From Vicinamibacteria bacterium (lineage in GTDB: Bacteria > Acidobacteriota > Vicinamibacteria > Fen-336), in the NCBI GenBank assembly GCA_023701125.1, contig JAMPXO010000027.1:1-47865 (forward strand): DNA of 47,865 nucleotides. Reading direction: 5' to 3'. The position numbers were made by a program, and so were the translations under genes. Below the pieces are notes generated by a model. That model was given only the letters and a program-made list of their open reading frames with translations. It did no database searches and was not told the origin of the DNA. Below are positions 195-47,732 of the stretch, one piece after another (position 1 is the first letter of the stretch; the number at the start of each line of letters is the position of its first letter).

Positions 195-278
195 GACGGG
201 GGTGCGGGGGCGGAGGAGCGTCCGTTTGCGACGGAGTCCCCGCGGGACCGGCGCGGGTTCATCCCGGCGCCGGAACCC
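195..278 (-). repeat. REP-like 84-bp intergenic repeat, single copy, inverted
   Basis: This is one copy of the repeat also found at 44947-45201 (three units) and 47565-47732 (two units), here in the opposite orientation. Shared blocks include GGGGGCGGAGGAGCGTCCGT and GGGTTCATCCCGGCG (as read on the plus strand). It fills most of the divergent intergenic space between pncB and the SAM hydroxide adenosyltransferase. The copy differs from the 85-bp form by a one-base deletion and several substitutions, so it looks older than the tandem copies. Confidence 0.85.
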
Positions 279-289
279 GACGGGTGGGC

Positions 290-39996: not shown

Positions 39997-40509
39997 ATGA
40001 AGAACCAGAAGGGTTTCACCCTCATCGAGCTGCTGATCGTGGTCGCGATCATCGGCATCATCGCCGCGATTGCCATCCCGAGCCTCCTCCGCGCCCGCAT
40101 CTCGGCGAACGAGTCCGGTGCGATGGGTGACTCGCGCTCGGTCGGTTCGTCGGAGGTCGCCTACTCCTCGAACAACGGCGGCGCGTTCGGCTGGATGAGC
40201 TGCCTCGGCACGCCGTCCTCCTGCGGCTTCGCGGGCGGCACCACGCCGTTCCTCGACAGCGCGATCACGTCGCTGGGCGCGAAGAGCGGCTACAACCGCT
40301 CCTTCGAGCCGGGCACGACCCTCGCGGGCTCCGTGGACACCGCCGGTATCGACGGCTTCGTCTACCACGCCACGCCGATCACCGTCGCCCAGACCGGCAA
40401 CAAGGGCTTCGGCATCGACGGCTCGGGCCTGATCTGCTTCACGACCGACGGCACGCTGGTGCCCTCGGCCAATGGTCGCCTCGCGATCACCTGCAGCCCG
40501 GTCAAGTAG
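39997..40509 (+). CDS. pilA: Type IV major pilin PilA (first of three)
   Basis: A 170-residue prepilin. The short leader MKNQKG is cut by prepilin peptidase before FTLIELLIVVAIIGI, with the conserved Glu at mature position 5. The hydrophobic N-terminal helix continues to IPSLLRARISANESGA. The globular part has four cysteines, in SCLGTPSSCGF and near the C-terminus (LICFTTDG, ITCSPVK), so two disulfides are likely. ATG 39997 is chosen because the upstream in-frame GTG at 39952 lies before the predicted sigma-54 start point, and AAGGAG/AAGGA elements precede 39997. It is followed by its own terminator, so it is probably made as a short, abundant mRNA. Confidence 0.93.
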   Translation: MKNQKGFTLIELLIVVAIIGIIAAIAIPSLLRARISANESGAMGDSRSVGSSEVAYSSNNGGAFGWMSCLGTPSSCGFAGGTTPFLDSAITSLGAKSGYNRSFEPGTTLAGSVDTAGIDGFVYHATPITVAQTGNKGFGIDGSGLICFTTDGTLVPSANGRLAITCSPVK

Positions 40510-40521
40510 CCATTTCTCATC

Positions 40522-40563
40522 GCGGCCGGCGGGCGCACACGTGCCTGCCGGCCGCTCGTTTTT
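40522..40563 (+). terminator. Rho-independent terminator after pilA (first copy)
   Basis: Arms GCGGCCGGCGGGC (40522-40534) and GCCTGCCGGCCGC (40543-40555) pair over 13 bp with one G-U, followed by TCG and five T residues. A clear intrinsic terminator, which isolates the first pilin gene from the next two. Confidence 0.88.
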
Positions 40564-40607
40564 CGTCCCTCTCGTACGGGCCTAAGGCCAAACCCAAGGA
40601 GCGCCAG

Positions 40608-41120
40608 GTGGAACGGGAACGAGGCTTCACGCTCATCGAACTGCTGATCGTCGTTGCGATCATCGGCATCATCGCCGCGATCGCGATCCCGAGCCTGCTG
40701 CGCGCGCGGATCTCGGCCAACGAGTCCGGCGCCATGGGTGACTCGCGGGCATTCGGCTCCGCCGAGCACGCGTACGCCTCGTCCAACGGCATGGCCTACG
40801 GGCGGATCTCGTGCCTGGGCACGCCCAGCTCGTGCGGCTTCCACTCCACGACCACGCCCTTCATCGATCCCGTGATCGCCAGCCTGGTGCCCAAGAGTGG
40901 CTACAACCGCTCGTTCGTGCCCGGCACTTCGATGGCCGGCTCCATGGACACGTCGTCGGTCGATTCGTACATGTACATCGCCACTCCGACCAATCAGAAC
41001 CAGACCGGCAGCAAGGGCTTCGCGATCGATGCTTCGGGTCTGATCTGCTTCACCACGGACGGCTCGGCTCCGCCGGCCAGCGGCTCGACGCTGGACGCGA
41101 CCTGTAGCCCCGTCCGCTAG
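40608..41120 (+). CDS. Type IV pilin, second copy
   Basis: A 170-residue prepilin nearly identical to the first over the leader and N-terminal helix (RGFTLIELLIVVAIIGI, then IPSLLRARISANESGAMGDS). The C-terminal half diverges but keeps the four cysteines (SCLGTPSSCGF, LICFTTDG, ATCSPVR) and the SGYNRSF block. The leader is MERERG. Start is GTG 40608 with AAGGAG upstream. It follows the terminator of the first pilin and has no obvious promoter of its own, so it may be expressed weakly or by read-through. It could be a minor pilin or a variant major pilin. Confidence 0.9.
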   Translation: MERERGFTLIELLIVVAIIGIIAAIAIPSLLRARISANESGAMGDSRAFGSAEHAYASSNGMAYGRISCLGTPSSCGFHSTTTPFIDPVIASLVPKSGYNRSFVPGTSMAGSMDTSSVDSYMYIATPTNQNQTGSKGFAIDASGLICFTTDGSAPPASGSTLDATCSPVR

Positions 41121-41261
41121 TCGCACCCTCGCCGCCCCGGCTGCCGTCGGCCGTGGCGCGGCTTCTTCGAGGCGCCCTCCCGCTTCGAGCCCGAACCAGA
41201 GACTCGAGGATCGGGTCGTTCTCGCGCAGCTGCGTCGAGGCGGCCCCAAGGGAGACCAGCC

Positions 41262-41777
41262 TTGCGCAAGGACGCCCCCGGCTTCACGCTGATCGAACTG
41301 CTGATCGTGGTCGCGATCATCGGCATCATCGCCGCCATCGCCATCCCCAGCCTGCTGCGGGCGCGGATGTCGGCCAACGAGTCCGGCGCCATCGCCGACT
41401 CGCGGGTCGTGGCCTCGGCCGAACACGCCTACGCCGGCGCCAACGGCAGCGCCTACGGCCACATGTCCTGCCTGGGCACGCCGACCGGTTGCGGCTTCGC
41501 TCCGAACACCACCGCGTTCGTCGACACGCTGGTGGCCTCGCTCGCCGCCAAGAACGGCTACAACCGCTCGTTCGTCGCGGGCACCACCAGCAAGGGCACG
41601 ACCGACACCGACGGCATCGCGTCCTGGGTCTACGTCGCCACCCCCGCGGCCGTCGGCCAGACGGGCTCCCGTGGTTTCGCCGTCGACGACAAGGGCATGG
41701 TCTGCCAGGACATCACGGGCGCCGTGCCGCCGCTCGCGGGCGCACGGCTCGACTCCACCTGCTCGCCCGTGCGCTAG
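41262..41777 (+). CDS. Type IV pilin, third copy
   Basis: A 171-residue prepilin, the most divergent of the three in the C-terminal half: SCLGTPTGCGF, NGYNRSFVAGT, and MVCQDITG in place of LICFTTDG. The N-terminal helix is again GFTLIELLIVVAIIGI with IPSLLRARMSANESGA. The leader is MRKDAPG. The start is a TTG (41262) with AGGGAG upstream. The 141 nt before it show no strong promoter or terminator. It ends 44 nt before an ABC transporter gene, with a hairpin between. Likely an alternative or minor pilin. Confidence 0.88.
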   Translation: MRKDAPGFTLIELLIVVAIIGIIAAIAIPSLLRARMSANESGAIADSRVVASAEHAYAGANGSAYGHMSCLGTPTGCGFAPNTTAFVDTLVASLAAKNGYNRSFVAGTTSKGTTDTDGIASWVYVATPAAVGQTGSRGFAVDDKGMVCQDITGAVPPLAGARLDSTCSPVR

Positions 41778-44435: not shown

Positions 44436-44944
44436 CCCGACGCCAGGCCCTGGCGGGACTCGCCGCGCTGGCGGCCACCCGCGCCCTGCCGGCTGGCGCT
44501 GCCGATCCCCTGCCAGGCCTGAAGCCGGGGGACAAGGTACCGGCGCTGCACGTGACCGGCCTCGACGGCATGCCGCGCAAGCTCGACTGGCCGGCCGGCA
44601 GGCCGACCGTGGTCATGTTCTTCATGCCGAGTTGCTCGGTCTGCCACACGATGTTTCCGCGCTGGAACCAGGCCTTCGCCCGCAAGCCGAAGTCGCTGGA
44701 GGCGGTCGGTGTCGCGCTCGAGCAGGAGCCGGCGGGCTTCTTCGACGCCTACTCGATCCAGTTCCCCGTCTTCCGCGGCCCCGGCGTGGCGCCCGCGGAC
44801 CCGCAGCGCCGCCGCGAGTTCGCCGAGGCCTTCAAGATCCGGCAGGTGCCGACCACGATGCGGGTGGCGCCGGGCGGCATCGTCGAGGAGTTCCACGTCG
44901 GGCCGCTCGACCTCATGAAGCTGGGCGAGGTGTTCCGGGGGTGA
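44420..44944 (+). CDS. TlpA/thioredoxin-like protein with exported signal
   Basis: A 174-residue protein with the thioredoxin fold. The N-terminus TRRQALAGLAALAATRALP looks like a Tat signal (twin Arg at 7-8). LKPGDKVPALHVTGLDG is the usual TlpA/AhpC entry strand, and the active site is FFMPSCSVCHTMFP (Cys72 and Cys75). VPTTMRVAPGG holds the cis-proline. It could reduce disulfides or serve cytochrome or cofactor assembly outside the membrane. It overlaps the preceding gene by 16 bp. Its stop is 2 nt before a block of three tandem repeats. Confidence 0.85.
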   Translation: MEGPVTRRQALAGLAALAATRALPAGAADPLPGLKPGDKVPALHVTGLDGMPRKLDWPAGRPTVVMFFMPSCSVCHTMFPRWNQAFARKPKSLEAVGVALEQEPAGFFDAYSIQFPVFRGPGVAPADPQRRREFAEAFKIRQVPTTMRVAPGGIVEEFHVGPLDLMKLGEVFRG

Positions 44945-44946
44945 TC

Positions 44947-45201
44947 GGGTTCCGACGCCGGGATGAACCCGGCGCCGGTCCCATGGGGGCTACGTCGCGA
45001 ACGGACGCTCCTCCGCCCCCAAACCCCCGTCGGGTTCCGACGCCGGGATGAACCCGGCGCCGGTGCCATGGGGGCTACGTCGCGAACGGACGCTCCTCCG
45101 CCCCCAAACCCCCATCGGGTTCCGACGCCGGGATGAACCCGGCGCCGGTGCCATGGGGGCTACGTCGCGAACGGACGCTCCTCCGCCCCCAAACCCCCAG
45201 C
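44947..45201 (+). repeat. Three tandem copies of an 85-bp REP-like repeat
   Basis: Units begin at 44947, 45032 and 45117, each 85 bp and almost identical (differences at the CGGTCCC/CGGTGCC site and the last three bases). Each contains the perfect 7-bp hairpin CGCCGGG-ATGAA-CCCGGCG and the palindrome CCCATGGG. The block fills the gap between convergent genes. Its last 42 bases are the end of the minus-strand gene at 45160, so the repeat encodes that protein's C-terminus and TAG stop. Confidence 0.95.
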
Positions 45202-47502
45202 GACGGCCAGCCCTGCCAGCGCGAGCAGGCCGAAGAGGGTGAGGGCGGTCGCAGCCGCCCATGCCCCGGGCCGGTACTCGAGGCGCACGTGGTGGCGGCC
45301 CGCGGGGACCGGGACCGCGCGGAACGCCACGTTGGCGCGCAGCACCGGGGCCGGCTTCCCGTCGACCTCGGCCCGCCAGCCGGGGTCCCAGGCCTCGCTC
45401 AGCACCACGAAGCCGTCGTGGCTGAGCTCGGCCGAGAGCTCGAGGCGGGCGTGACCGCGCTTCGATTCCTGCACGACGGCCGTGAAGTCCGCGGGCGCCG
45501 GCCGCGGGGCTGCGTCCGCGAGCACGAGCTCGCGGGCCGGGTCGAAGCCGGCGTCGAGCAGGACCCGGTAGGCATGCCAGCCGTCCGCACGACGAACGCC
45601 GGCGACGGCCCGGACTCGCGGTAGCGGGTCCGGCACGGCGAACACGTGGATGGGCTCCGCGAACCCGCCCGGCAACACTGCGGTCTCGCGCAGACCTGGG
45701 TGGCCTTCGCCGTGCAGGGCGAGCACCGCGTCCACGGAGCCGAGTTGCAAGAGCCGCAGGTAGCCTGGCGTCTCCGCGGAGTCGCGCTGCAGTTGCACGA
45801 GGTCACGCAGCGGCAACGGGTAGAGCCGCATCAGGTCGTGGCTGAAGCTGCCCGCGAGGCCGTGGCGCGGCGCGATCGAGGGGAACAGGTAGTGCTGCAG
45901 GCCCAGCGCACGTGCGAACGCGGGCGGCAGCCCCACGGGCACTTCGTGGAAGAAGGCGCGGAAGTCGCGCTCGGGGAAGCGCTTGCCTGCCGGTCGCGTG
46001 CGGTAGTCCCAGACGTGGATGCGGGCGTTCGCCGGCAGCGCGTCGACGGTGGGCGGGCGGAAGCGCAGCAGGTCGGCCGGCGCCAGCGCGTTCAGGCCGT
46101 GGTGGGCGCTTCCCAACTCGGCAGCGGCCGCGCACGAGATCACGGCCGCCCCCCACGCGGGCCGGCCGGCGCGGGCGAGGAGGGCGAGGCCGAGCGCGGC
46201 CGCCGCCGTGAGCCCGGCCGCCACGAACGGGGGCCGCGGGGCGGGGAAGGGGCGCACGAAGGGCGCCGCGGCCAGCGGCACGAACGCCAACGCCGCAGCG
46301 AGGCCGACCCCGAGCGCGAGGGCCGCCAGCGCGCGGAGGCGTGCGCGCCGACCGACTTCGTCGCCGCGAGCGCAGGCCTCGGCCCCCAGCGCCGCCAGCA
46401 GCGCGAGGCCGAGCGCGGCCGGGGCCATCGCCTTGACGGGGAAGCGCAGGCCCTGGAGCGGCGGCAGCAGCCACTCCGCCAACGCGTGGAACGGCGCGTG
46501 GCGCCCCAGCGCGAAGGCCACCGCGGCCAGCGACAGCGCGGCCAGGACGAGCACCGCGCGACGGCGCTCGGAGGCGGACGCTGCGACCAGCAGGCCGAGT
46601 GCGGGCAGGCCCAGGTACAACGAGAGGAAGAAGGGCTCGCTGTCCTCGCGGGCGACGAGCGGGTCGTCCGCGGGGCGCGGCAGGGTGTCGACCGGCGCCG
46701 GCAGGAACAACTGCGCCAGGGCGCCGGGGCGCACCGACCAGTACGTCCGCGCCGCCGCGGTGAGCGCCTCGCGCTCGGAGCGGGCCGCCAGCTCGAGCGC
46801 GGGCCACCACGAGACGGCGCTCGACGCGATCGCGAGCACGGCGGCTGCCGCGGCCGTCGCGAAGCGGGAGCGGCGCCTGTCGCCGTTGACCAGCGTCCCG
46901 CCCGCGAGCAGCGCTGAGAGCAGGCCCCCGCACAGCGCCATCTCGCCGGAGCCGGCGAGCACCTGCAGGGCGAGGCTCGCGCCCCAGAGTGCCGCCGCGC
47001 CCGGGCCCGGCGCGGCGAGCGCCCGCAACGCGGCGAGCGCGACCCACGGCAGCCAGGCCGCGCCCGAGAGCTGGTGCCAGAGGTTGGCCATCGAGAGCAT
47101 CGGGCCCGAGGCGGCGAACAGCGCGCCGGAAAGCGCCGCCGCGGGTGCCGCCAGGCCGAGCCGGCGGCCGAGCGCGAAGGCCCCGATCGCCGCCCAGGCG
47201 ACGTGCACCAGCACGAGGACCGAGTAGGCCGCCCACGGCTCCAGCCCCAGCAGCAACCACGTCGTCGGGTAGGCGCTCTGGGTCTGCGGGTTGGCCCAGT
47301 GCGGCTGGCCGAAGCCCCAGGCCGGGTCCCACAGCGGCAGCTCGCCCGCAGCCACGGCGCCCTTGAAGGCCCAGGCGTGGGCATGCCACGACAGGTGCAC
47401 GTCGCGCTCGAACAGCGCTCCACCGCGCAGGACCCCTTCGAGCGCCCACAGCGCGGGCACCACGGCCGCGGCGCCGTACGCGGCCGCGGCTCGTCTGCTC
47501 AC
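45160..47502 (-). CDS. YfhO-family polytopic membrane protein (GT-C-like), copy 4, flanked by repeats
   Basis: A 780-residue protein of the same plan as the genes at 25548, 27864 and 36113. The first loop is LFERDVHLSWHAHAWAFK, followed by PLWDPAWGFGQPHWANPQTQ; then many helices; the C-terminal beta domain has LSEAWDPGWRAEVDGKPAP and VRLEYRPGAW before a last helix. GTG 47502 is the start. The last 13-14 residues (ending LGAEERPFAT) and the stop are encoded by the tandem repeat at 44947-45201, so the original stop seems to have been replaced. Two further repeat copies lie upstream at 47565-47732. It follows a family 2 glycosyltransferase gene on the same strand, which supports a sugar-transfer role. 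Confidence 0.82.
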   Translation of the reverse strand: MSRRAAAAYGAAAVVPALWALEGVLRGGALFERDVHLSWHAHAWAFKGAVAAGELPLWDPAWGFGQPHWANPQTQSAYPTTWLLLGLEPWAAYSVLVLVHVAWAAIGAFALGRRLGLAAPAAALSGALFAASGPMLSMANLWHQLSGAAWLPWVALAALRALAAPGPGAAALWGASLALQVLAGSGEMALCGGLLSALLAGGTLVNGDRRRSRFATAAAAAVLAIASSAVSWWPALELAARSEREALTAAARTYWSVRPGALAQLFLPAPVDTLPRPADDPLVAREDSEPFFLSLYLGLPALGLLVAASASERRRAVLVLAALSLAAVAFALGRHAPFHALAEWLLPPLQGLRFPVKAMAPAALGLALLAALGAEACARGDEVGRRARLRALAALALGVGLAAALAFVPLAAAPFVRPFPAPRPPFVAAGLTAAAALGLALLARAGRPAWGAAVISCAAAAELGSAHHGLNALAPADLLRFRPPTVDALPANARIHVWDYRTRPAGKRFPERDFRAFFHEVPVGLPPAFARALGLQHYLFPSIAPRHGLAGSFSHDLMRLYPLPLRDLVQLQRDSAETPGYLRLLQLGSVDAVLALHGEGHPGLRETAVLPGGFAEPIHVFAVPDPLPRVRAVAGVRRADGWHAYRVLLDAGFDPARELVLADAAPRPAPADFTAVVQESKRGHARLELSAELSHDGFVVLSEAWDPGWRAEVDGKPAPVLRANVAFRAVPVPAGRHHVRLEYRPGAWAAATALTLFGLLALAGLAVAGGLGAEERPFAT

Positions 47503-47564
47503 ACCCGCGTCCGGCTCAGGATCGCGTGGACACGACCGGGGTCGCGGCTCATGCCCGCGCCATC

Positions 47565-47732
47565 GGGTTCCGTCGCCGGGGTGAACCCGTCGCCGGTCCC
47601 ATGGGGGCTCCGTCGCGAACGGAGCTCCTCCGCCCCCAAGCCCCCGTCGGGTTCCGGCGCCGGGATGAACCCGTCGCCGGTCCCATGGGGGCTCCGTCGC
47701 GAACGGAGCTCCTCCGCCCCCAAGCCCCCGTC
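47565..47732 (+). repeat. Two tandem copies of the 84-bp REP-like repeat
   Basis: Units begin at 47565 and 47649, each 84 bp, in the same window orientation as the block at 44947. They share GGTCCCATGGGGGCT and TCCTCCGCCCCCAAGCCCCC, but the first hairpin is weakened (CCGTCGCC in place of CCGGCGCC). The block ends 5 nt short of the glycosyltransferase stop codon. It fills most of the gap up to the YfhO-type gene, and I see nothing else there. Confidence 0.92.

Follow-up and report, generated by a model that had tools for sequence, protein, structure and literature searches.

A genus-specific palindromic repeat of Vicinamibacteria that probably moves as a small insertion element and enters genes in frame

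We report here a repeat of about 84 nt in the genome of a Vicinamibacteria bacterium that is very probably a mobile palindromic insertion element, non-autonomous, specific to its genus and acting in the manner of Rickettsia palindromic elements (RPE). Each unit consists of two adjacent hairpins. Hundreds of copies are spread over three species, and the sites that they occupy are mostly non-orthologous.

Results

Repeat copies in the window

The window is the whole 47,865-nt stretch of DNA that was analysed and equals one complete contig (C154); the genome comprises 5.4 Mb in 254 contigs. The original prediction of six copies at three loci was confirmed with TRF and nhmmer, except that the three-unit array starts at 44944, three bases before the start that had been given. 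This array (44944-45198) consists of three tandem 85-nt units (TRF: 98% matches, score 498); the second locus (47563-47732) is a pair of tandem 84-nt units (97% matches), and the third is a single inverted copy at about 196-281, where the profile model matched from 280 to 202. The features are as follows.

44944-45028, plus strand: unit 1 of a three-unit head-to-tail array (TRF, nhmmer, covariance model 103.2 bits)
45029-45113, plus strand: unit 2 of the three-unit array (TRF, nhmmer, covariance model)
45114-45198, plus strand: unit 3 of the three-unit array (TRF, nhmmer, covariance model)
44952-44978, plus strand: hairpin 1 of unit 1, with an 11-bp stem and the 5-nt loop ATGAA, present in each unit (compensatory changes across copies)
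44984-45021, plus strand: hairpin 2 of unit 1, with outer stem TGGGGGC/GCCCCCA and an imperfect inner stem, present in each unit
47563-47646, plus strand: unit 4, first of a two-unit array (TRF, nhmmer, covariance model)
47647-47730, plus strand: unit 5, second of the two-unit array (TRF, nhmmer, covariance model)
196-281, minus strand: unit 6, a lone inverted copy with divergent genes on either side (nhmmer, covariance model)
45160-45198, minus strand: the portion of unit 3 that forms the last 12 residues (GGLGAEERPFAT) and the stop of a YfhO-like gene

The hairpin CGCCGGG-ATGAA-CCCGGCG had been described as common to all copies; in this perfect form it is found only in the three-unit array, and the units at 47.6 kb have CCCGTCG as the 3' arm. 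Likewise, CCCATGGG and TCGCGA are not shared by the inverted copy, which has CCCGCGGGG (also given as CCCGCGGG) and TCGCAA instead. The three-unit array has no counterpart in either of two congeners, where 77 and 73 nt separate the aligned flanks that are 327 nt apart here, and its third unit provides the YfhO-like gene (45160-47463, minus strand) with a new 12-residue C-terminus and a stop codon. The window was correctly said to lack a transposase, as far as it was examined. Elsewhere in the window (40012-41579) lie three tandem paralogous 300-nt stretches of 75-76% identity, spaced by 611 and 657, each within a predicted gene.

A large family confined to one genus

A genome-wide search with the 5' hairpin core gave 121 matches (three mismatches or fewer) against 0 for a reversed control, well above what chance would yield. 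An iterated profile, run on some 1.5 Mb around the known matches, recovered 192 copies, full or partial. The covariance model found at least 150 copies in the own genome (G000), so that the further copies for which a genome-wide search had been proposed do exist, together with 50 in G001 and 72 in G002. The congeners, two MAGs named ACD1 (JAMQGV) and ACD2 (WYBL), have been deposited as Vicinamibacteria and Acidobacteria. The same model found 0 copies in a further 27 genomes, of which 11 belong to the same family and the others to its order and class, and BLAST, which returned no copy beyond the genus, agreed. When GTDB r220 was scanned with a pattern, matches were limited to ACD1, ACD2 and one contig labelled 'Armatimonadetes' (L131, JACPDV010000187.1). 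This contig was rejected as an outside carrier: it is syntenic with contig C55 of the own genome, with 90-96% flank identity, and thus is probably mis-binned Acidobacteriota DNA. Plasmid and viral collections contained no match to the repeat.

Empty orthologous sites

Both flanks could be aligned in a congener at 40 sites occupied in the own genome; 38 of these were empty in the congener and 2 were occupied in both, indicating that the element is mobile. At L094:9150-9228, where the junction was cleanest, the empty site reads GTCCCCGACACCC and the occupied site GTCCCCGAC-element-CCCCGACTCCC, a 7-bp duplication in which the CCCCGAC of the empty site is present twice around the element. Other junctions were less tidy: small extra changes occurred at several empty sites, and the target-site duplication was variable. 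The flanking triplet [GA][TA]C was the same on the left and on the right in 21 of 88 copies, compared with 10.5 expected (5000 permutations, p=2e-4). Judged from these junctions, insertion may produce a weak target-site duplication. The original description of a dispersed, hairpin-forming, mobile, REP-like repeat was borne out.

In-frame insertion into genes

About a third of the arrays do not fit the term 'extragenic', as they sit inside protein-coding genes: 36 of the 122 classified arrays of the own genome (about three in ten) lie within predicted genes, as do 13 of 36 in the DNA fetched around copies in the congeners. Genes were called with a home-made coding model trained on known genes of the window, and 11 of the 36 in-gene copies were verified by orthologs. 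The frame test was keyed on the empty site of the congener, which avoids bias from our own gene calls. The empty site fell inside a gene of the congener in 11 cases, and all 11 insertions of the own genome were in frame, with the reading frame left open and both flanks conserved. The net length at these 11 sites was 69-87 nt (162 for a doublet) and was always divisible by 3, compared with 13 of the 29 other sites. In the reverse situation, with G001 occupied and the own genome empty, the two hosts were an acyl-CoA synthetase and MsrA, both named from sequence without a family search, and both insertions were in frame. Every gene-borne copy that could be tested is thus in frame, adding 23-29 predicted residues, about 27 (54 for the doublet), to an otherwise conserved protein. 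One candidate for a frame-breaking insertion (G1C15:183586, net 83 by the DNA flanks) was rejected, as it was in frame once the proteins were aligned.

Host genes include those of a glycosyltransferase, an ABC transporter, in which the insert lies between two domains, and a DUF2332 protein. The body of the element has few stop codons and can be read in any of the six frames. Copies in genes make use of every frame and of both orientations, most often giving ..GFRRRDEPGAGPMGATSQTELLRPQTP and ..GLGAEELRSRRSPHGTGAGFTPASEP; GLGAEELR and DEPGAGPMGATSQTELLRPQTP are examples of the peptides predicted to be encoded by inserts.

Anatomy of the element and conservation of its stems

The consensus of the element is TCGGGTTCCGrCGCCGGGnTGAACCCGgCGCCGGTCCCATGGGGGCTACGTCGCGAACGGAcGCTCCTCCGCCCCCAAACCCCC, some 84 nt that form two adjacent hairpins. 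Hairpin 1 has an 11-bp stem starting with C; its 5-nt loop falls into two classes, RTGAA and C-NNA-G, the second of which can close further to leave three bases in the loop. Hairpin 2 is bounded by TRYGGGGGC/GCCCCC and has an imperfect inner stem. Single units fold better than shuffled sequence both as DNA and as RNA. C[GA][TA]C (CGTC, CATC, CGAC or CAAC) precedes the first unit in 75 of 129 arrays, and exact CGTC is the commonest preceding tetramer (32 of 129).

Among 47 divergent copies, two-sided changes were found at 16 of 28 stem pairs. The number of two-sided cells was 76, compared with 20.5 (sd 4.7) in shuffles and 14 at most in slid controls; hairpin 1 had about 40 two-sided cells and 4 one-sided ones. 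Changes in the stems are thus paired, and G-T (G-U) intermediates are nearly absent. This scarcity of wobble intermediates, which would be unusual for an RNA helix, suggests that pairing is kept at the DNA level, as a hairpin, a cruciform or through quasi-palindrome templated repair.

Several variant forms were seen. A longer composite, in which GCCTGGGCGGAGGAGCGAAGCGACGGAGCCCAGC and GGCCCGAGCGCCGGGATTCACTCCCGGCGCGAGCC hairpins stand between hairpin 1 and hairpin 2, occurs at L065:3955, L066:17433-17587, L082:9322, L093:9099-9254 and L100:2836, and resembles either a nested insertion or a modular element of four hairpins. A very different first hairpin (e.g., CTCGCGCCAGGCAGAGCCTGTCGCTCGGGCC) is joined to the usual hairpin 2 at L049:8499, L088:859 and 15976, L109:4498, L116:9481 and L063:19729, as if hairpin modules had been swapped. 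Copies truncated at the 3' side, at variable points between model positions 40 and 65 (e.g., L057:11774, L074:10632, L083:10141, L069:4211 and L071:2986), seem to be commoner than those truncated at the 5' side, which may hint at a direction of copying.

Tandem arrays

Two to five units are present in 36 of 143 arrays; all of these are head-to-tail, and 0 have mixed orientation. Median identity is 96% between adjacent units and 80% between units of different arrays, in agreement with the earlier view that the tandem block reflects recent amplification. From the sequences, one insertion followed by local duplication would be the simplest account of the arrays. Twenty-one arrays lie within 400 bp of the end of a fetched sequence, many of them at true contig ends, and in the own genome contigs C72, C73, C152, C162, C177, C218, C222 and C227 begin or finish in repeat arrays. 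Longer arrays therefore probably break the assembly, and the unit counts are lower bounds.

Alternative explanations

The original prediction attributed the spread of the repeat to a RAYT-type enzyme, that is, to a REP or REPIN moved by a Y1 tyrosine transposase encoded elsewhere in the genome. A hairpin repeat that is mobile, genus-restricted and present in many copies would suit such an enzyme, and the stem changes are compatible with a single-stranded DNA substrate. However, neither PF01797 (Y1_Tnp) nor NF047646 (REP-associated tyrosine transposase) had a match in any of the three genomes (own and congeners), drafts that carry 50 to 150+ copies each, whereas the control genomes were positive; hence, the proposed search for a Y1 gene flanked by the repeat met no Y1 gene in the three genomes. 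Tetramer counts showed that the GTAG tag is missing, the arrays are all head-to-tail rather than alternating, and the unit is 84 nt long with two hairpins. We consider movement by a RAYT very improbable. A role in RNA, as a terminator or mRNA stabiliser retained for the hairpins in its transcript, is slightly less probable still. The RNA folds are very stable (z -2.5 to -4.5), the pairing is strongly conserved, and arrays are over-represented between convergent genes (28 of 85 intergenic arrays vs 42 of 402 gaps overall), a bias that also fits removal from promoters. Against this role, there is no strand preference relative to transcription: within genes of the own genome 19 arrays were on the same strand and 17 were antisense, and between co-directional genes the two orientations numbered 20 and 22. 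Rfam had no match to the repeat, and the near absence of G-U intermediates is unlike a selected RNA helix. A conserved regulatory role is made less likely by the lineage-specific nature of almost all comparable sites and by the 30% of arrays that lie in genes, and we conclude that the repeat is a selfish element filtered by selection.

Replication slippage, which had been offered as the other source of the repeat, or recombination is the likely source of the tandem arrays, whose units are 96% alike and invariably head-to-tail. As the sole process, without transposition, it is the least probable of the explanations, because single copies scattered on different contigs, at sites that are empty in the congeners, need a dispersal step. 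A MITE of a classical DDE insertion sequence, with terminal inverted repeats GGGTT...AACCC and a short duplication, has a better claim than any of these, although we still think it unlikely. The short inverted ends and the weak C[GA][TA]C duplication speak for it, and other bacterial MITEs have open frames and intragenic insertions (PMC2229807). On the other hand, the inverted end is just 5 bp, such elements need no conserved internal hairpins, and no parent IS was seen in the window, the genome searches having covered the Y1 and reverse-transcriptase families. A DDE transposase acting in trans is a possible mover. Reverse transcriptase (PF00078) gave no match in the own genome; in G001 the match is broken into three pieces and contains two TGA stops (C12:262115-262766), and the other two genomes have none. 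All three genomes are drafts, 85-95% complete, so the gene of the mobilising enzyme could be missing from the assemblies.

Discussion

The RPE of AT-rich intracellular bacteria are 105-150 nt long and have terminal inverted repeats (Ogata et al. 2000/2002, reviewed in PMC2229807 and PMC10969869). Like them, the family described here consists of small, dispersed, genus-specific hairpins, many of them in frame in unrelated conserved proteins, with no known transposase; it differs in its GC-rich 84-nt unit with two side-by-side hairpins, its frequent head-to-tail arrays, its use of six frames and its acidobacterial host. The likeness is one of behaviour, the Rickettsia families RPE-1 to RPE-10 having been compared by their published descriptions. 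By analogy of function, the family may be filed among the protein-coding palindromic elements.

CGTC-tagged REPs, which include RPE-4 and RPE-6 of R. conorii and are without a dedicated transposase (Di Nocera et al. 2013, PMC3733652), share with our element the 5-nt loop, CCA after hairpin 1 and intragenic copies, as well as that lack, and in part the 5' tag by the stem, which here is C[GA][TA]C in 75 of 129 arrays. They have stems of 8-9 bp that nearly always start with AT, loops of 4-5 nt, predominantly head-to-head dimers, a negligible share of head-to-tail ones and rare clusters, and Acidobacteria is not among the phyla listed for them (PMC3733652). Our element differs by an 11-bp stem starting with C, exclusively head-to-tail arrays and a second hairpin per unit. 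The resemblance is partial, as our element lacks two of their defining features, the stem form and the head-to-head dimers. GTAG REPs and REPINs with RAYT are also high-copy dispersed hairpins (PMC3116915, PMC2817692, PMC3733652), whereas our family lacks the GTAG tag and inverted dimers, and its three genomes yielded no RAYT. Gene-borne REPs are known in O. terrae (PMC3733652), so the intragenic habit itself is not new. The enterobacterial RU-1/RU-2 (ERIC/YPAL) and Neisseria Correia elements are likewise small and non-autonomous, with stable folds and some in-frame fusions, but are longer (100-170 nt) and mostly intergenic; Correia and ERIC also have the long-fold anatomy of MITEs with terminal inverted repeats (PMC2229807). 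The literature examined contained no account of such elements from Acidobacteriota.

Taken together, we infer that the element inserts in either orientation at sites like C[GA][TA]C(GG), presumably being copied through a single-stranded or cruciform DNA hairpin by an enzyme supplied in trans that would be no recognisable RAYT or Y1 transposase. Gene-breaking copies would then be purged, whereas intergenic and in-frame copies would persist as near-neutral selfish DNA, and local slippage or unequal recombination would multiply some copies into head-to-tail arrays. More tentatively, and with considerable doubt, the family might be a mobile hairpin that spreads by no recognisable transposase, selected for both paired DNA stems and six-frame readability, and acting as a generator of peptide insertions in a genus with no known intracellular lifestyle.

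Palindromic elements that invade genes in frame are known mainly from Rickettsia and Wolbachia, obligate intracellular bacteria in which relaxed selection could account for the habit. The same behaviour is now seen in a GC-rich genome of 5.4 Mb, and the empty sites are preserved in two congeners. This opens the insertion spectrum, the frame filter and the fate of inserted peptides to direct tests, and a high-copy mobile hairpin family without RAYT sharpens the question of what moves such elements.
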